Virus record (IMG/VR): IMGVR_UViG_3300047444_000168
Span: 1-43,174 of that record
Reading direction: 5' to 3' (one strand)
DNA: 43,174 bases
Origin: a virus
Shown: in pieces, positions 2,004-43,174 of the stretch
Layout: each line of letters opens with the position of its first letter
Numbering within the stretch: the stretch's first letter is position 1
Notes under the pieces: generated by a model
Databases searched by the model: none
The model's input: only the letters and a program-made list of their open reading frames with translations
Told to the model about the DNA's origin: nothing
Program-made: the position numbers and the translations under genes

Positions 2004-4538
<2,535 letters not shown>

Positions 4539-4539
<1 letters not shown>

Positions 4540-5429
4540 TGCGCGTCTCGGTCGTGATGATTTGCAAGAACGAGGAGGCGGTGCTGGCTCGCTGCCTCGA
4601 ATCGGTGAAGGAAGCCGACGAGATTATCATTTGCGATACAGGCTCCACCGACCGCACCATCGAGATTGCCCAGCAGTTCACGGATAAGGTCTTCACCGAT
4701 TACGTCTGGGAAGACAACTTTGCCAAGGCGCGGAACCATGCGCTGAGCAAGGCCACGGGCGATTGGGTGCTCTCGATTGACGCTGACGAATACCTGACCT
4801 GTCCCTTCAGCACGGTGCGTGAAGCGGTGGCGAAGGGGTTCATGGCGATCAACGTCAAGATGACGGCTGAATCCGGCCCGCCGTCCCACTTCTGGTTCCC
4901 GCGGCTCTTTCTGCGGTCCCCGAATGTCTGGTGGGAAGGCGCGATCCATAACCATATCTCAGTCATGGGTGAGGACGTGGGCGCGGTCACGCTGACCTAC
5001 GGCTATTCGCCCGCCCATACGCTGGATCCCTTGCGCTCGATGCGGATTCTGGAGAAGGAAGTGGCGGATCGGCCTGACTGCATCCGGGAGCGGTTCTACT
5101 TGGGTCGGGAATACTTCTACCGCGGCCAGTATGACCAAGCCCTGGTGATGCTCGGGCGCTACGTCCAGCAGTCGCGGTTCCTCGCGGAGAAGGCGGAAGC
5201 CTTCCTCACGATGTCGCGGGTCTATTGGGCGCTGCACATGCCCGACGATGCCCGGGATGCGCTGGTGCAGTGCCTGATTATCAATCCCAGGTTCAAAGAA
5301 GCCGTGCTGTTCATGGCGGAACTGGCGGGGGACGGGTCCAATAATCCCCGCTGGCAGAAGAATGCCGATCAGTGGAAGCGGATGGCGGAGACGGCGGATA
5401 ACGACGGCGTGCTGTTCCTGCGCACATGA
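4539..5429 (+). CDS. Family 2 glycosyltransferase with TPR-like C-terminus
   Basis: 296 residues. The ATG overlaps the collagen gene's TAA; an upstream in-frame start would extend back into that gene. The N-terminal GT-A fold is clear: SVVMICKNEE (4-13), CDTGSTDRT (32-40) and the DAD metal/nucleotide-sugar motif at 81-83 (LSIDADEYL). Residues about 185-260 are helical repeats of TPR style (YFYRGQYDQALVMLGRY, AFLTMSRVYWAL). This arrangement is common in SunS/WaaE-like GT2 enzymes that transfer a sugar to protein or lipid-core acceptors. The acceptor is unknown; the adjacent GPT-repeat protein is the obvious candidate. Confidence 0.85.
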
Positions 5430-6475
5430 AATATCTCTTGTCGCCCCACGACGACGATTCGGCGCTCTTCGCGGCCGTGACGTGCCTGCGTGAGCAGCCG
5501 ACAGTGGTCGTGGTGACGGATTCGCTGGTGCAGCCAGCGCGTGGCGAGACGGGGTGTTCAGCGGAGGAGCGGGCTGCGGAGACGGCGAAGGCCCATGCGG
5601 TGCTCGGCTGTCAGACACGGCGGCTGGGGTTGCCGGATGACGGGCTGACGCTGGCTGAACTGATGACGGCCTTTGGCACGCTGTCGGATGTGGAGACGGT
5701 GTATGCCCCGGCGCTCGAGGGCGGGCATCCCCACCACGATCTGGTCAGTCTCGCGGCGGCCGCGGTCTTCGGGACGGATACCCTGCGGTGCTATGCGACC
5801 TACCAGAAGCTGAGTCAATACCGGGACGTGGACCTGCAACCCGTGGGCACGACGGAGATTGAATGGACGCGGGACGAGTATCAGCAGAAGCTGCAGGCGT
5901 TGATCTGTTACGAGAGCCAGTTGCGGGTCAACCCGATGCACTTCCGAGCCGTCGAGGGTCGCAGCGAATGGCTGTCGGGCTTCAATCGGCTGCATCTGGG
6001 GTGTGGTGCTCGCATCTTCCCCGGCTGGATCAACGTGGACCGGCAGACACCTGAGGTGCCCAGCAGCTTCTTTCAGCGCTGCGACATTCTCGCTGAACCG
6101 TTGCCCCTGGATGACGCCAGCGTCGATTACGTGTTCTCGGAAGACTTCTTGGAGCATCTGCCGCCTGAGCGTCGGGTGGCGGTGATCAACGAGGTCAATC
6201 GGGTGCTCGTGCCGGGGGGCGTCATGGAGCACTATGTGCCGAATGCCGGCAGCCGGAACGATTACGGATCCCCCAGCCATCTGTCCCATTGGAACGCGCA
6301 AGTCTTTGAGCACTTTGACGTGGACTCGCACCGCTGGAAGAAGGATCGCGTCTTCGAACGCATTCAGGGCGGCTTCCGCAAAGTCAGCGCGGATCTGCTG
6401 AACTGGCAGGTCGAAGAGGACGGCGTGAAGCGGGCGCAGAGTCTGCGGGTGCGCTACCGGAAGGTCGCATGCTGA
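5426..6475 (+). CDS. PIG-L-like deacetylase fused to SAM methyltransferase
   Basis: 349 residues overlapping the GT2 gene by 4 bp (ATGA). Residues 1-~170 resemble PIG-L/LmbE N-acetylglucosamine deacetylases: the metal motif SPHDDDSALFA at 6-16 (family norm PHPDDE) and GGHPHHDL at 99-106 for the downstream His pair. Residues ~185-349 are a class I methyltransferase: LHLGCG at 189-194, WINVDR acidic loop, and a VDYVFSEDFLEHLPP segment typical of motif IV and beyond. One chain could deacetylate and methylate a sugar. In the first motif Asp replaces Pro and Asp replaces the final Glu, so deacetylase activity is not certain. Confidence 0.8.
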   Translation: MKYLLSPHDDDSALFAAVTCLREQPTVVVVTDSLVQPARGETGCSAEERAAETAKAHAVLGCQTRRLGLPDDGLTLAELMTAFGTLSDVETVYAPALEGGHPHHDLVSLAAAAVFGTDTLRCYATYQKLSQYRDVDLQPVGTTEIEWTRDEYQQKLQALICYESQLRVNPMHFRAVEGRSEWLSGFNRLHLGCGARIFPGWINVDRQTPEVPSSFFQRCDILAEPLPLDDASVDYVFSEDFLEHLPPERRVAVINEVNRVLVPGGVMEHYVPNAGSRNDYGSPSHLSHWNAQVFEHFDVDSHRWKKDRVFERIQGGFRKVSADLLNWQVEEDGVKRAQSLRVRYRKVAC

Positions 6476-7293
6476 GAAAGACCTTTCTGCTGCCCCAGTT
6501 CGGGCCGCCCTTCCCGTGGACGGAGCAGTATCTGGAGCATATCGGCAGCCTCGCGCCCTACGGCTGGTCGTGGAAGATTCTCACGCCGCATGGCTACACG
6601 TCCAAGAGCCCGAACGTCGAGATTGTCCCGATGACGTTCGCGCAGTTCGATGCGCGGGTGAAAGCCGTCACGGGCGTGGAGTCGGGCAACTTCCTGGACG
6701 CCGACTTCCTGCCGGTGAAGCTGCTTAGCGACTACTACCCCGCCTTCGGGGAGTTATTCGCGGACCTCCTGACCGAGTGCGATTACTGGAGCATCACCAA
6801 CTGGGATGTGCTCTACGGCCGGCTGGATCATTTCCTGCCCGATGAGACGCTGGCGCAGTATGACCTCTGGTCGGATGACCACCATCACGTCAATAGCCTG
6901 TGGTGCCTCTACAAGAACGAGCCGCGCATCAATGCCCTGTATCGGCTGGTGCCGCACTGGGAGGAGATGTTCCAGGTCAATGGGCGGCCGATCTTCGGCT
7001 TCGATGAGATTTACTTCGACCTGATTGTCCGGCAACTCGCGGACGCCGGGCAGATTCGGTTCGGCCATCCCCCATATTTCGCGGTGCATAGCTATGACCG
7101 GTTGATTCAGCATCAGCCCACGCCGAATCTCTCGTTGGCGCCGGATGGGGCGTTGATTGAGTGCTTTGACGACGGCTTCAAGCCGTTAGAGAGCTATCCG
7201 GCATGGCGGGGGTTCTTTGGGCGTGAGATTGCCTACTTTCATTTCCTGAGCACCAAGACATGGCCCGCACTGCGACCTTATCCCGTCCGGTGA
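6469..7293 (+). CDS. DUF6625-like putative glycosyltransferase
   Basis: 274 residues overlapping the previous gene by 7 bp. The opening (FGPPFPWTEQYLEHIGSL), a middle VKLLSDYYPAFGELFADLL, and CDYWSITNWDVLYGRLDHFL match the layout I associate with the DUF6625 family found in polysaccharide clusters, where the D/N-x-D of the last segment stands at the nucleotide-sugar site. Its place between a GT2, a deacetylase-methyltransferase and a C-methyltransferase supports a role in glycan building. Family recall is from memory; the exact donor and acceptor are unknown. Confidence 0.6.
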   Translation: MLRKTFLLPQFGPPFPWTEQYLEHIGSLAPYGWSWKILTPHGYTSKSPNVEIVPMTFAQFDARVKAVTGVESGNFLDADFLPVKLLSDYYPAFGELFADLLTECDYWSITNWDVLYGRLDHFLPDETLAQYDLWSDDHHHVNSLWCLYKNEPRINALYRLVPHWEEMFQVNGRPIFGFDEIYFDLIVRQLADAGQIRFGHPPYFAVHSYDRLIQHQPTPNLSLAPDGALIECFDDGFKPLESYPAWRGFFGREIAYFHFLSTKTWPALRPYPVR

Positions 7294-8534
7294 CTTCGGT
7301 CTACCGGGAGATTGACGCCTGTCGCATGACGGGCAGCCGGGACCTGGTGTCCCTGCTGGATCTGGGCGAGATGGCCCTGACGGGTATCTTCCCGAAGCCG
7401 GGTGTGGACGTGCCCAGCGGCCCTGTCGAACTGGTCCTGTGTCCAGATGGTGGCTTGGTGCAGTTGCGGCAGAGTTACGCGCCCTCGCTGATGTATGGCG
7501 AGAACTACGGCTATCGGTCAGGGCTGAACGGCTCGATGGTGCGGCACTTGGCTGGTATTGCGGCTTCGCTCGAGCGGCTGTGCCCCACGCGGGCCGGCGA
7601 TGTGGTGCTGGACATTGGCAGCAATGACGGCACGCTGCTGGGGTCGTATGAGAACCGCGGCCAGAAGTTTCTCGGCATGGACCCGACCGCGGCGAAGTTT
7701 GGTCGGTTCTATGCGCCGCATGTCCAGCCGGTGACTGAGTTCTTCTCGGCGGCTCGGTATCGTCAGATCATGGGCGCGAGGCCCGCTCGGATCGTGACCT
7801 CGATTGCGATGCTCTACGACCTCGAGCAGCCGCTGGCGTTCATGCAGGAGGTCTCACGCATTCTGGCCAACGATGGCGTCTGGTATACGGAGCAAAGCTA
7901 CCTGCCGGCGCTGCTTGATTCGTGTGCCTACGACACGATCTGCCACGAGCATCTGGAGTATTACGGCCTGACGCAGTTGCAGTGGATGGCTGACAGGGCC
8001 GACCTCCGCATCATCGAGGCGAAGCCGAACGACACCAACGGCGGATCGTTAGCGGTGACGTTCGCGCACCGACAATCGAAGTATCGCTCGGATAGCGCCA
8101 ATATTGCGCTCTTGCTGGGTGCGGAGCGCCAGCGTGGACTGGATGAGCCTGACGGCTTCGTGGCCTTTCAATCCGCCGTGGCACGGCATCGCGTCGAACT
8201 GCCGGCGCTGATTCGCTCGCTCCGTGCGGCGGGTAAGACCGTCTTCGGCTACGGCGCCTCCACGAAGGGCAACGTGCTCCTGCAAGCCTGCGGGTTGACA
8301 TCAGACGATCTGCCGTGCATTGCGGACGTGAATCCAGACAAGCACGGCTGCGTCACGCCAGGGACGCACATCCCGATTGTCTCGGAAGCCGACGCGCACG
8401 CACAGCAGCCTGATTATTACCTCGTGCTGCCGTGGCACTTCCGCAAGCACATCATCGAGCGAGAAGCGGCGTTCTTGGCGCGTGGTGGCAAGCTGATCTT
8501 CCCGCTGCCGACTATTGACGTGGTGGGATCCTAA
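7260..8534 (+). CDS. Sugar C-methyltransferase-like SAM enzyme
   Basis: 424 residues with the three-part architecture of TylC3/NovU-type deoxysugar C-methyltransferases. An N-terminal Zn-binding segment is degenerate (CRMTGS near 22 and a CPDGG pair near 61). The central SAM-binding domain has VVLDIGSNDGTLL near 120 and ICHEHLEYY near 225. The C-terminal domain has VFGYGASTKGNVLLQ near 329-343. These enzymes usually act on NDP-ketosugars. The gene overlaps the previous one by 34 bp if it starts at ATG 7260. A GTG at 7290 would give a 4-bp overlap and lose only 10 residues, so the start is uncertain. Confidence 0.85.
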   Translation: MARTATLSRPVTSVYREIDACRMTGSRDLVSLLDLGEMALTGIFPKPGVDVPSGPVELVLCPDGGLVQLRQSYAPSLMYGENYGYRSGLNGSMVRHLAGIAASLERLCPTRAGDVVLDIGSNDGTLLGSYENRGQKFLGMDPTAAKFGRFYAPHVQPVTEFFSAARYRQIMGARPARIVTSIAMLYDLEQPLAFMQEVSRILANDGVWYTEQSYLPALLDSCAYDTICHEHLEYYGLTQLQWMADRADLRIIEAKPNDTNGGSLAVTFAHRQSKYRSDSANIALLLGAERQRGLDEPDGFVAFQSAVARHRVELPALIRSLRAAGKTVFGYGASTKGNVLLQACGLTSDDLPCIADVNPDKHGCVTPGTHIPIVSEADAHAQQPDYYLVLPWHFRKHIIEREAAFLARGGKLIFPLPTIDVVGS

Positions 8535-10713: not shown

Positions 10714-12431
10714 AGCAATACATCAGCGGCAAGACGTGGGGGAATGTCGGGACCTCATCCACGGACCCTGCGGACTATCCCTGTTTCTCGCCGCTTCGGG
10801 GGCATGAGTGGAGTAACCAGACGGATGCCCCTGACGGCCAGCGGTTCAAGATGTCGCATCCCTGGTCAGTGGCGGGCACCTTTAAGCATTTGTATGTGGA
10901 GATTACGAAGCCCGAAGAGAATCCGGCGGGCATTACGTGGCCGGATATTGATTTCGAGCTGTATATCAACAATGCGCCGACGGGTCTTCTCGTCTCCGTT
11001 CCCGGCCATGCTGCTGGAGGGGCGACGGAACTCTATAGCACCTCCGGGCAGAATACGACCGACACCGCCACGATTGCTCCTGGGGATCGGGTCGCCTTAG
11101 CGAGACATGCGGGGGCGATTTCGCTGGGCTTTAACAATTTCAGCGCGTTGATTGCGTGGTCGCTCACCTTTGAGAGCGACACCGACGGGGAGAGCGGCTA
11201 TGGCGTCTCGTCCTACGGGGCGGGACAACTCACGGACACGAATCCCTTGTCGGCCCCGCCCTTCAATGGCACGGGCGGATTCTCTGTGGGGAATGACAAC
11301 ACTATTGGGTTGACCTCTGAACATAGCATCGTGCCGCTGATTGGGGCCTTGACGCGGTTGGATGTGCAACTCGAAACAGCGCCGGGGATGGGCGAGCATC
11401 GCACCTATGCGATGGTCTTAAACACGATTCAGCAGGATGGCACGGGCGGCACGGTGGATACACAGGTGACAATCAGCAACCTGTCCACGACGGGCTTTGC
11501 GGAGTTTACCTTACCGCTGGCGGTCTTGGACCGGCTCTCGATCCGGCAATTGGTGTCTGGGGGCTCGCCCGCCCCGACGCGCATTACCGCCTCGGTGGCG
11601 CTGACCGCGACCACGGACGGGCAATCGGCGCTCAATTTTGACGCAGGCGGATCGAATCCGATTACGGATGGATCGACGGATTACGGGTCGAACGGGGGGT
11701 GGGCGTGGACGACGACGGCGGCCCCCACTCCCTCGTCTAATCCTGATCGGTTCCCGGTTTCGGAAAACTTTATGAGTTTTCCCGGGCCGCTCGACGGCTT
11801 CACCTTGTCGAGTCTGTGTGTGAATCTCAGTAACTCCCCGGGCACGGATGCCACGCGGAGTTTCATCACGCGGAAGGCGTTCGCGGATACCGCGGCCACG
11901 TTGCAGATGCTCGATAGCGACCAGTTATCCGTGGGATCGGATGGGAGTGCGAATTATTTCACACCCACGGATCGGATCGATCTCCAACAGATCGCCTCCC
12001 TGACCCCGACCGCTACGGCCTCTACGATTGGCTGGACGTGGCTCGTCACCGAATCCACCACGCCGCCGATTGTCTCGACCTCCTATCCGATCCGCCGGCT
12101 GCGGCGATTCGCGCTGCCGTTCGATCAGAACAAGTGGATCTTCATCAGCCGCGTCGAACTGATCATGCAGGCCGGGAATGGCCTCTCAGGGACGGCGGCG
12201 ACGGTGCAGGGTTACAACCCGATTGTGATGTTCCGGCTGTCGCGGGATGGTGGCGCGACGTGGGACGATGAGCTCCAGATGGCGACGGGCAAACTGGGGG
12301 AATATACGGCGCGGGCCTATCTGAATCGCCTTGGACGGGCTCGGAATCCGGTGGTCGAGTTGACCTCGAGCGATCCGGTGTTTGTCTCGTGGATTGACTT
12401 TACGGTGGATTACGAGGAAGGCACGAGCTAG
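10710..12431 (+). CDS. Large beta-rich tail/fibre protein
   Basis: 573 residues, overlapping the preceding gene by 4 bp and ending in the start codon of the collagen-like gene. It is built of Thr/Ser/Gly-rich strands with repeating beta-sandwich-like units ([37 protein letters not shown]), without catalytic motifs. Context (gp10-like upstream, collagen-like fibre downstream) points to a tail or fibre structural protein. Confidence 0.65.
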
Positions 12432-12817
12432 TGGCGAATCCGAGTGCCATTCCCTCGATTACGCAGCCGATTGCGGAGCCGTCTGATCTAGTGACGCGTC
12501 CGTGGTATCTCTGGTTCCAAAGCCTTCGGAGCGCCAGCGGGATGACGGGACCGACGGGGGCGACGGGGGCCGCTGGGCCGACGGGGCCGCGCGGGCCGAC
12601 GGGGCCCACGGGCGTGACGGGGGCGACCGGACCCAGTGGTCCGCAAGGCACGGCGGCGCACCTCACGGGTCCGACCGGTCCGACGGGGACTGCAGGCCCG
12701 ACTGGTCCGAGTGGACCCTCGGTGGATTATGTCGTCTTGAGCGATGGTGGGCTGCCGACGCCCCTACCTGTCGATGACGGCGCCGGCAACTTCATATATG
12801 TGACGTATACCCCATGA
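12431..12817 (+). CDS. Short collagen-like fibre protein
   Basis: 128 residues starting at GTG in the previous gene's stop region. Residues 1-37 form a conserved-looking head ([18 protein letters not shown]), about 38-96 is a Gly-X-Y tract dominated by GPT with one QGTAAHL interruption like those in the 612-residue collagen protein, and ~96-128 is a small cap. The head motif resembles N-termini that anchor short fibres in other phages. It overlaps the next gene by 4 bp. Confidence 0.75.
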
Positions 12818-13449: not shown

Positions 13450-13475
13450 CGCAGGCGTATACTTCGGTAACACGA
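13450..13475 (+). promoter_or_regulatory. Late-type promoter candidate (TATACTTCGGT element)
   Basis: The 38-bp gap before the ejection-protein operon holds GCAGGCGTATACTTCGGTAA. The -10-like TATACT lies at 13458-13463. The same element stands before the small terminase, the 36.4 kb gene and the scaffold gene. No consistent -35 is visible. The ATG at 13485 is 21 nt after the -10. Confidence 0.6.
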
Positions 13476-19403: not shown

Positions 19404-20045
19404 CTAGGCATTACTCAGGGCTTCCTCAATACTCCAGCCATAGTAGTCAATGCGCTGCGTGATGGTCGAGCGTTTGATACCCGTCAGGCGGGACCATTCC
19501 GCAAGGGTATGGGTCACTCCCTGCAAGGTCAGCACGCGATTTACTCGCGTATTATTGGCTTGCTGAATGCGGCTTCCCCATCGGCAATTGTTTCGACTAT
19601 ACGGGCCATTGTTATCGATCCGATCAAGCGAATGGCCGACAGGGCAGCGGCCCATATCTCGCAGGAATACTTGATAATCATCGCGCCATTCTTGCGAGAC
19701 CGTAATCCCACGACCTCCATAATGCGCGAATCGTGGGTCTTTCGGGTTGTAGCAGCGTTTTTGCGATTGCACCCACGCTCGGTATTCCTTTGTGACTTTA
19801 CCGATAGCGGCTTCGCCATGAATGCGTCGTGCGGCCCCGGCTCGCAATTCTTTCAAGCGACAACCGCAGGAAGTAGTCCAGCCTCTCTTGAGGCGTTTAG
19901 TCCACGCTATTTTCATGCGTCCACAATCGCACTGGCACAACCATTTAGTCGGCACGAACGAATGGAACGAAACCACTGTGAGGCGTCCGAATCGTTGGCC
20001 TTTCTTGAGAATGGTCTGCGGTTTAGGCATGGCAAAGAATACCAT
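19404..20045 (-). CDS. HNH homing endonuclease with NUMOD-like DNA-binding tail
   Basis: 213 residues on the minus strand (a second possible start, Met6, removes five residues). N-terminal GQRFGRLTVVS followed by a Cys pair (CQCDCG) and SCGC is the common leader of phage HNH/AP2-type homing endonucleases. SLDRIDNNGPYSRNNCRWGS near 150-170 is the HNH-like core. The last ~40 residues (LAEWSRLTGIKRSTITQRI, GWSIEEAL) look like a NUMOD/helix-turn-helix module. It is the only minus-strand gene in the virion region and is less GC-rich than its flanks, so it is probably a mobile insertion between two late genes. Confidence 0.85.
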   Translation of the reverse strand: MVFFAMPKPQTILKKGQRFGRLTVVSFHSFVPTKWLCQCDCGRMKIAWTKRLKRGWTTSCGCRLKELRAGAARRIHGEAAIGKVTKEYRAWVQSQKRCYNPKDPRFAHYGGRGITVSQEWRDDYQVFLRDMGRCPVGHSLDRIDNNGPYSRNNCRWGSRIQQANNTRVNRVLTLQGVTHTLAEWSRLTGIKRSTITQRIDYYGWSIEEALSNA

Positions 20046-27368: not shown

Positions 27369-27637
27369 TGGCCTTTCTGGCGCGCCTGTTCCCCAGCCGC
27401 TCGTCCTACGTGTCGCCTGAATGGCTGGATGCCTTGGCGAACCGGGGGAGCACGGAGGGGTGGACGGAGGCGCCGCGGATTGACTGGCGGGTGAACACCT
27501 ACAGTGGGCCACGGACGCGCCAGGATGCCCCACAGGAGCCGTTGACGATGGTTTCGACCGCAAGCCCGGATAAGTGTCTGGTCTTCACTGGCGGGGCGGC
27601 TTACAAGCGGGAGGGGGGAGAGTGGACACGGCTATGA
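27365..27637 (+). CDS. Early protein, 90 aa
   Basis: Starts at the first of two adjacent ATGs, overlapping the previous stop, and ends in an ATGA overlap. Trp/Pro-rich, with SPEWLDALANRGSTEGWTEA. No recognised motif. Confidence 0.5.
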   Translation: MMAFLARLFPSRSSYVSPEWLDALANRGSTEGWTEAPRIDWRVNTYSGPRTRQDAPQEPLTMVSTASPDKCLVFTGGAAYKREGGEWTRL

Positions 27638-27888
27638 CGCAGGGCACCCTGAGCTACACGCCGAAGTTTTTGAACCCCACCAGCCTGACGGGGCGGGTGT
27701 ATGCCCTCCTGGACGCGCACCGAGGGCAGTGGGTGGACGGGCGCGAAATCATGCAGGTTGGCGGGTATGCGGGGTGGTCGGCGCGGGTGCGGGATCTGCG
27801 GAAGCTGGGGTATGTCGTGGAGCAGCGGGATTACCGGGTGGAGCGGGACGGGCGGAAGTTCACGGTGACGGAATACAGGTTGATCTGA
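27634..27888 (+). CDS. Winged-helix-like DNA-binding protein, 84 aa
   Basis: TGRVYALLDAHRGQWVDGRE, followed by a helix ARVRDLRKLGYVVEQR and a beta hairpin ending TVTEYRLI, is the pattern of a winged helix: helix, turn, recognition helix, wing. It overlaps the sigma-region-4 gene's ATG. Phage proteins of this type are often Rha/antirepressor-like or replication accessory factors; the exact role is unknown. Confidence 0.6.
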   Translation: MTQGTLSYTPKFLNPTSLTGRVYALLDAHRGQWVDGREIMQVGGYAGWSARVRDLRKLGYVVEQRDYRVERDGRKFTVTEYRLI

Positions 27889-28238
27889 TGGTGCATCACT
27901 TGAATATGGATCACGCGCCGGCCTGCATTGCGGTCACTCGGGAGGTCTTCGGGTGCCAGGAGACCGTCATCCCTCCCGAGATGGCCTTAACTGATGCGAT
28001 GTGGGACGCCATGGACACGTTGTCGGCTCGAGAGGCTATTGCCTTACGTGCTCGGTTTGGCTTCTGGGCCGGTGCAGAGCGGCAGACCTACGCGGTGATT
28101 GGGACGCATTTTGGCGTCACGGGGCCACGGATTGCGCAGATTGTGAATAAGGCGCTGCGGAAGATGCGGCATCCCTCACGGTCGCGGTGTCTGCGGAAGC
28201 TCTTACATCCCGATGGTGTTCCTGAGCCTGTCTGGTAA
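27888..28238 (+). CDS. Sigma70 region 4-only protein (putative transcription regulator)
   Basis: 116 residues. Residues about 35-106 read as sigma70 domain 4: TLSAREAIALRARFGF (44-59) corresponds to region 4.1 and RIAQIVNKALRKMRHPSRSR (81-100) to the region 4.2 recognition helix plus the conserved tail of RpoD. Regions 1-3 are missing, so it cannot be a complete sigma factor. Such a protein could displace or assist host sigma at the -35 position or the RNAP beta flap. It is encoded in the early region, ahead of the late genes. Confidence 0.8.
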   Translation: MVHHLNMDHAPACIAVTREVFGCQETVIPPEMALTDAMWDAMDTLSAREAIALRARFGFWAGAERQTYAVIGTHFGVTGPRIAQIVNKALRKMRHPSRSRCLRKLLHPDGVPEPVW

Positions 28239-28474
28239 AGCTCCGCGCTACGGGAGGAGAGTCCTAGGGCGCTTGGACGTGCCGCCGGTCGCGTGGAGAC
28301 TACCGGCACCTCTTCTCCAACCCTGCTCAGGTGCAACTGATGCAGGTGGTCGCCAGCACGCGCCGGGTCGTGCGGAGAATACCCGGCACCTACATCTTGT
28401 GGCTTGACTCCGCGAGAGCAGAGGCGTAACTTTCCGCTTGACCTGTAACGCAGTTTTCGTTACCGTAACGCACC
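28239..28474 (+). other. Intergenic region with two matching hairpins and GTAACG repeats
   Basis: 236 bp, the largest gap in the early region. Two imperfect ~28-nt repeats form hairpins with GCCGGT/ACCGGC (28284-28307) and GCCGGGT/ACCCGGC (28362-28387), both with 12-nt loops containing GGAGA. At 28445-28470 copies of GTAACG stand in both orientations, including the palindrome CGTTACCGTAACG at 28458-28470, right before the initiator gene. A TTGACC (28438-28443) to TACCGT pair with a 17-bp spacer may be its promoter. A short open frame ends at 28429 (RIPGTYILWLDSARAEA) but lacks a convincing start. Confidence 0.6.
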
Positions 28475-29032
28475 GTGTATAACAAGTTGTTTACCAAGAT
28501 TCTCGACTCCTCGATCTGGTTGGAAGACAACCCCACGCGGATTGTCTGGTTGACGTTCATCGCGGCCATGGACGAGCACGGCTTCTGCTCGTTCGCGTCT
28601 GCCGCCAATGTGGCGCGGCGAGCGGTTGTCACGCTGAAGGAAGCCAAGACAGCGATTGAGAAGTTCGAACGGCCGGATCCTGATTCTGGTGATTCCGATA
28701 ATGAAGGCAGACGTTTAGAGCGTGTCCCTGGTGGCTGGATCGTGCTCAACGCGACGAAGTATCGGGACATGGTGACGCGGGCGATTGTGCAGCAGCAGAC
28801 CCGCGAACGGGTGCGGAAACATCGGGCCGGAAAGGCACGTAACGCACAAAACGTTACAAGCCAAAACAGTAACGCAAACGTAACGCCATCAGAAGCAGTA
28901 TCAGAAGCAGTATCAGTAAATACAGAACAAGCTAATCAGAGAGAACCGAGAAGGCTTGTCGATCCTGAGTTACTGAAGAAGGCTGCGAAGGCGACGAATA
29001 CCGGACGGAGCACCCGTGTGCGCTTTAGGTAA
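28475..29032 (+). CDS. Lambda O-like replication initiator candidate
   Basis: 185 residues from GTG 28475. The N-terminal ~115 residues (KLFTKILDSSIWLEDNPTRI ... WIVLNATKYRDMVTR) match the winged-helix head of phage replisome organisers: an initial helix, WLTFIAAMDEHGF, then recognition of ordered strands. A basic helix (QQQTRERVRKHRAGKAR) and a low-complexity Asn/Ala/Ser/Glu linker follow. That linker is encoded by repeated GTAACG boxes and a 12-bp tandem repeat, like iterons inside lambda O. No ATPase motif, so it would recruit the host helicase. Confidence 0.75.
   Translation: MYNKLFTKILDSSIWLEDNPTRIVWLTFIAAMDEHGFCSFASAANVARRAVVTLKEAKTAIEKFERPDPDSGDSDNEGRRLERVPGGWIVLNATKYRDMVTRAIVQQQTRERVRKHRAGKARNAQNVTSQNSNANVTPSEAVSEAVSVNTEQANQREPRRLVDPELLKKAAKATNTGRSTRVRFR
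28839..28945. other. Candidate replication origin: iterons, tandem repeat and AT-rich stretch
   Basis: Four GTAACG-type boxes in 48 bp: forward at 28839, 28869 and 28880, inverted at 28852. Then ATCAGAAGCAGT twice in tandem at 28888-28911 with a third partial copy, then an AT-rich stretch to about 28945. The same GTAACG box occurs at 28445 and in a palindrome at 28458-28470 ahead of the gene. Arrangement (iterons within the initiator gene, unwinding region next to them) is that of lambdoid origins. Confidence 0.65.
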
Positions 29033-34510: not shown

Positions 34511-34534
34511 TGCAGTTGTATACTTCGGTGCCGC
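34511..34534 (+). promoter_or_regulatory. Late-type promoter candidate (TATACTTCGGT element)
   Basis: TGCAGTTGTATACTTCGGTG in the 27-bp gap before the small terminase; TATACT at 34519-34524. The TTG start at 34535 is only 10 nt downstream, so the mRNA may be almost leaderless. Confidence 0.6.
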
Positions 34535-36413: not shown

Positions 36414-36436
36414 AACAGGTGTATACTGCCGTGCCA
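36414..36436 (+). promoter_or_regulatory. Late-type promoter candidate (TATACTGCCGTG variant)
   Basis: CAGGTGTATACTGCCGTGCC right after the large terminase, with TATACT at 36422-36427. It differs from the other three copies in the TTCG part. Confidence 0.5.

Positions 36437-42722: not shown

Positions 42723-43174
<452 letters not shown>

Follow-up and report, generated by a model that had tools for sequence, protein, structure and literature searches.

The window, that is, the whole stretch of DNA that was analysed, is a viral record of 43,174 bases derived from soil. Its ends carry the same 127 bp as an exact direct repeat, which indicates that the phage genome is probably complete, and according to Pfam it encodes a P22-like portal and coat protein. 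The locus under study consists of the following features.

27634-27888, plus strand: 84-aa winged-helix-like protein, conserved in sister phages, its stop codon overlapping the ATG of P0001 (HTH_39, E 0.05, below the cut-off)
27888-28238, plus strand: P0001, a 116-aa stand-alone RpoD-type sigma region 4 (Pfam, NCBIfam and PDB matches, AlphaFold with Foldseek, codon pattern)
27981-28205, plus strand: region 4 domain, P0001 residues 32-106 (PDB sequence match, AlphaFold)
28122-28136, plus strand: GPRIA, codons 79-83, in place of RpoD RERIR (R584>G, E585>P, R588>A in E. coli numbering)
28239-28311, plus strand: conserved 73-bp element marking the 3′ boundary of an exchange slot, with 96-100% identity to several sisters irrespective of what occupies their slot

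A region 4 domain without the rest of a sigma factor

The start codon of the P0001 gene is directly coupled to the stop codon of the upstream gene (TGATG). Its frame had the best codon score of all six (+0.08 bits/codon) and contained no stops, and a phage-like codon pattern was detected at 27888-28238 in this frame only, the five other frames showing negative scores and 3-4 stops each across the gene.

A first-pass annotation had described the product as a sigma factor reduced to sigma70 region 4, with an RpoD-like C-terminus and nothing else of a sigma factor, and had proposed a Sigma70_r4 profile search as a check. This search clearly supported the assignment, as Pfam Sigma70_r4 (PF04545) matched residues 41-95 with E 1e-9 and 38.2 bits, exceeding the curated cut-off of 24.1 bits. 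The NCBIfam RpoD model matched residues 34-106 (E 8e-16), the PDB entries 3n97 and 1tty, both representing sigma-A region 4, were retrieved with E 4-5e-14, and PHROG 351 matched with E 2e-10 across its region 4 part. Sigma regions 1-3 were not detected in P0001 by the Pfam and NCBIfam profile searches, and the N-terminal ~29 residues yielded zero matches in domain and structure sequence searches.

The structure was predicted with AlphaFold from an alignment of 41 sequences, from which locus L004 of the phage collection was left out; this model was used instead of the single-sequence model, which had a pLDDT of 40.7. The predicted structure is a sigma-4 fold with five helices (residues 30-43, 47-57, 68-75, 79-93 and 96-106) and a core pLDDT of 92-97. 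In Foldseek comparisons the model was ~45% identical to sigma-A region 4 and superimposed on whole sigma-A chains with an rmsd of ~1.6 Å over 76 columns, the best structural matches including sigma-A4/beta-flap chimeras. Profile match and predicted fold together place P0001 in the region 4 domain family (PF04545), consistent with the RpoD-like C-terminus noted earlier. Compared with RpoD/SigA, P0001 shows ~45-50% identity over region 4 and the same predicted fold but differs in the missing regions 1-3, the replaced -35 readers and the unmatched N-terminus.

P0001 contains the only region 4 of the genome, and no match to Sigma70_r2 was obtained in the whole genome even at E 1. A sigma (initiation) factor needs region 2 to bind core and to recognise the -10 element, and by these profile searches neither P0001 nor the genome provides it. 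With one region 4 and no region 2, P0001 thus cannot serve as a usual sigma factor, either alone or as a phage-encoded half of a pair.

Proteins consisting of region 4 alone recur among phages and have already been catalogued. Small region 4 proteins from unrelated phages in IMG/VR comprise 73 aa (L230), 112 aa (L213 and L214) and 113 aa (L242), further ones comprise ~138-200 aa, and BFVD entries named 'Sigma70_r4 domain containing protein' range from 94 to 136 aa. Like P0001, a subset of PHROG 351, the BFVD proteins A0A6J5S254, A0A6J5LJJ3 and A0A6J5LKM7 and the four IMG/VR proteins named above consist of little beyond region 4, and P0001, having no other sigma region, belongs with them (PHROG 351 subset). 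Most stand-alone viral Sigma70_r4 proteins, however, keep R584, E585 and R588, which are replaced in P0001. No paper on the function of such proteins was found in a literature search that covered few subscription journals. In a distant phage (L361), a 64-aa mini region 4 helix-turn-helix (HTH) protein (2806-2997; Pfam E 7e-8) is encoded immediately before a distant homologue of the window's gene at 28475-29032. The same phage also carries an integrase-like ORF.

An IMG/VR peptide-pattern scan for close copies of P0001 returned only L001, and a first scan of the genome contigs collection returned none; overall, the searches of viral and genome collections yielded a single copy of the gene. The tblastn matches in the phage collection were rejected as RpoD or RpoD-like, the one inspected, from a Klebsiella prophage record, being a host-type rpoD of full length with primase and tRNA-Met as neighbours. 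Most loci of the A2 scan proved to be rpoD, either full-length or at a contig edge, and were excluded from the tally of phage mini-proteins.

Residues replaced and retained in P0001

The first-pass annotation had also pointed to a near-canonical segment. The stretch KALRKMRHPSRS is indeed exact, but the replacement of -35-reading residues was overlooked: in the N-terminal half of the segment GPRIAQIVN stands in place of RpoD RERIRQIEA. In E. coli sigma70, R584 and E585 are seen in the structure to touch bases of the -35 element, and substitution at each of R584, E585 and R588 relaxes -35 specificity (PMC2613000). P0001 carries G, P and A at these three positions, whereas 32, 33 and 37 of the 41 sequences in the alignment keep R584, E585 and R588, respectively. 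Loss of the -35 readers is common to L001 and L091 (GVTGCRIAQIVNKA and CTGGRIQQIEAK). Judged from its residues, P0001 is unlikely to read the -35 element normally; altered DNA binding is possible because R586, Q589 and K593 are kept.

Conservation was evaluated with a set of 80 bacterial relatives, of which 73 lie in ORFs >250 aa. Among the 42 columns that are at least 90% conserved in this set, P0001 differs at 14. These changes concentrate in 573-592, the helix-turn-helix part (10 of 18 compared to 4 of 24 columns, p 0.02), although this grouping was made post hoc. No significant enrichment of changes was obtained for the DNA-contact residues as a class (p 0.46), a list of positions based in part on the Thermus aquaticus structure.

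P0001 keeps R554, R562, T583, R586, Q589 and K593, and thereby the backbone-contact residues R554, R562, R586 and K593. In general, backbone-contact, activator-contact and C-terminal residues are mostly retained, including all conserved columns of the stretch 593-603, which represents the activator surface of region 4 (PMC2988021). The helices of region 4 that contact the beta-flap are H1, H2 and H5 (PMC2988021); this flap-facing part is largely conserved in P0001, and several core-adjacent positions are altered.

An exchange slot and its relation to the late-gene sites

IMG/VR contains many relatives of this phage as judged by TerL. In four of them (L006, L008, L019 and L020, TerL 92-99% identical), the winged-helix-like gene is immediately followed by the 73-bp element with no sigma-4 gene. 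The slot, 27889-28238 of the window, was compared with the loci L329-L344 and L176-L181. Among 16 loci with the winged-helix-like gene, the slot is empty in four, and the remaining ones contain ~nine different single small ORFs, as identified by eye. These occupants are HNH- or NUMOD-like, zinc-ribbon-like or others of 49, 59, 71, 78, 136 and 162 aa, and several of them begin at the upstream stop codon as P0001 does. A region 4 above the Pfam cut-off was found in none of 46 related records, many of which are fragments. The empty or variable slot in the sisters demonstrates that the P0001 gene is one occupant of an early-gene exchange slot, that is, an accessory cassette. As closely related phages fill this slot with other small genes or with nothing, P0001 is probably an optional tool for disturbing transcription in the host rather than a switch for the phage's own promoters.

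The core of the 73-bp element, GCGCTTGGACGTGCCGCCGGTCGCGTGGAGACTACCGGCACC, is nearly invariant in the sisters and its 5′ part is variable. Possible hairpins (GCCGGT..ACCGGC, repeated nearby as GCCGGGT..ACCCGGC) are present at 28239-28311 and ~28360-28391. Rfam gave no credible match for 28239-28311, and the fold of 28236-28440 was no better than that of shuffled sequences (z -0.77). Further downstream, GTAACGC-type repeats resembling replication-origin iterons occur at 28440-28475 and 28850-28890, before and inside the gene at 28475-29032.

Elsewhere in the genome, a run of sugar-modification genes was observed at 4509-8534 (glycosyltransferase family 2, PIG-L deacetylase plus methyltransferase, DUF6625 and NDP-sugar C-methyltransferase-like). 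Three predicted proteins with collagen-like GPTGPTG repeats (2701-4539, 12431-12817 and 42723-42977) are probably tail or virion fibres, and a 213-aa ORF on the minus strand (19404-20045) resembles an AP2/HNH homing endonuclease by eye, with no Pfam match at E 0.01.

P0001 had further been linked to late promoters at TATACT sites. Exact TATACT occurs four times in the genome compared to 2.83 expected, and 32 of 100 shuffles reach four, a frequency near chance. Exact copies of the nonamer TATACTTCG lie at 13458, 34519 and 39749; position 36422 carries TATACTGCC. Two sisters with an empty slot (L008 and L019) keep the sites at TerS, after TerL and in the scaffold region, and a third (L020) keeps two of them. 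In L018/G006 all three are kept, and no region 4 was found anywhere in its 35 kb. Because the TATACTTCG sites persist without the P0001 gene, they do not depend on P0001, and an accessory cassette is unlikely to encode a factor needed by the late genes. An activator of late genes would be expected to be conserved in the clade, and judging from these genomes P0001 is missing from the very sisters that retain the late-gene sites. The sister genomes thus do not support the proposed link, and the TATACT promoter idea was rejected on this basis.

The GTGTATACT(T/G)C repeats at 34519, 36422 and 39749 lie in the vicinity of TerS, downstream of TerL and ahead of the scaffold-region gene. In the sister phages the motif is fixed and the sequence upstream of it varies, so that the motif may also mark a module boundary. 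The three repeats can be read as starts of short peptides as well (MYTSVP.., MYTS* and MYTAVP..). They may represent a promoter, a leader peptide or a recombination boundary.

Possible roles of P0001

The first-pass annotation had suggested that P0001 could replace the host's region 4 on the beta-flap. Its observation of a lone region 4 is confirmed, and its interpretation is supported in part. The reading we favour, tentatively and at somewhat less than even odds, is that this stand-alone RpoD-type region 4, an optional early-gene cassette of a podovirus, competes for the host beta-flap. We infer that P0001 binds host RNA polymerase at the beta-flap and competes there with region 4 of the host sigma. 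Host promoters that depend on the -35 element would be weakened relative to extended -10 or activator-assisted ones, since P0001 is unlikely to read TTGACA normally. By its retained K593, R596 and R599, it could also engage region 4-dependent activators or titrate them away.

Such competition is plausible given the predicted sigma-4 fold and the largely conserved H1, H2 and H5. It is further supported by the combination of RpoD region 4 sequence and fold, replaced R584/E585/R588 and missing region 2, and the accessory slot suits an optional interference function. Moreover, the contact between sigma-4 and the beta-flap is a known phage target, on which phage regulators act through sigma-4, the flap or both (PMC3985653). 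T4 AsiA/MotA and Xp10 P7 are small phage proteins at this contact (PMC2988021, PMC3985653), and the outcome proposed for P0001 would resemble the one that AsiA and P7 reach with other folds. The likeness is one of outcome and no homology is claimed, as AsiA binds sigma-4 itself and P7 the N-terminus of beta′ together with the flap, and neither protein is a region 4 domain. The main doubt concerns affinity. On its own, E. coli sigma-4 lacks an ordered structure in water (PMC4236625), and a free domain without a tether to the core may compete poorly with intact sigma. The missing enrichment of changes in the DNA-contact class, the retention of R586, Q589 and K593 and the single known gene copy also argue against competition for the flap.

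Nearly as likely, though still doubtful, is that P0001 acts as a DNA-binding regulator whose HTH recognises a phage operator other than TTGACA. It might repress, or recruit RNA polymerase through the flap, possibly together with the overlapping winged-helix protein, by analogy with GafA-like or RinA/ArpU-like phage activators. The HTH fold, the kept backbone contacts, the overlap of the two genes and the mini region 4 that L361 encodes just before its homologue of the gene at 28475-29032 are consistent with this. In GafA, from the Rhodobacter gene transfer agent, the C-terminal domain is sigma-like, and the protein binds its promoter; in Agrobacterium it is split into two ORFs (PMC6363796), and this occurrence of the sigma-like domain as a separate ORF in some species resembles stand-alone P0001. 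RinA/Ltr of staphylococcal phages are small regulators encoded near late genes (PMC13123087), whereas ~6 kb separate the P0001 gene from TerS, and sisters lack it. Compared by family profiles alone, GafA and RinA/Ltr had no sequence match to P0001. Against this reading, the operator is hypothetical, and 16 further loci carry the winged-helix gene with no region 4 gene next to it, so that the two proteins are not obligate partners.

It is improbable that P0001 is a functionless piece of a sigma gene, host or phage in origin, that was acquired recently or is decaying. The single copy in the viral and genome collections and the changed core-adjacent positions would fit such a relic, but the intact frame, coupled start, phage-like codon use and well-formed predicted fold do not, nor does the precisely gene-sized insertion in a slot that holds intact small genes, nor the recurrence of stand-alone region 4 in unrelated phages. 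About as improbable is a decoy that soaks up anti-sigma factors or activators targeting region 4, from the host or competing phages, thereby protecting the phage's use of host polymerase. An accessory cassette is what a conditional advantage would lead one to expect, and the activator surface 593-603 is intact; yet nearly every region 4 domain conserves these residues, so that their retention is not specific evidence, and the target is hypothetical. Split sigma factors exist, such as SigO/RsoA of Bacillus subtilis, and on this precedent P0001 could be one half joining a region-2 partner; this is very improbable, considering that the self-closing genome gave no Sigma70_r2 match at E 1.

Stand-alone region 4 proteins are annotated as sigma factors though they lack what a sigma factor needs. 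The new points here, which are worth following, are the replaced -35 readers and the exchange slot. As a more novel though unlikely proposal, a free region 4 without -35 reading could serve as a trans-acting competitive inhibitor of the host's own region 4 at the beta-flap, passed between phages as a one-gene cassette. As P0001 keeps the flap-facing surface and has its -35 readers replaced, it would offer a clean test of action on the polymerase without promoter recognition. If true, an inhibitor of this type would be an anti-sigma made from sigma itself, adding a self-derived inhibitor to the known ways in which phages seize host transcription.
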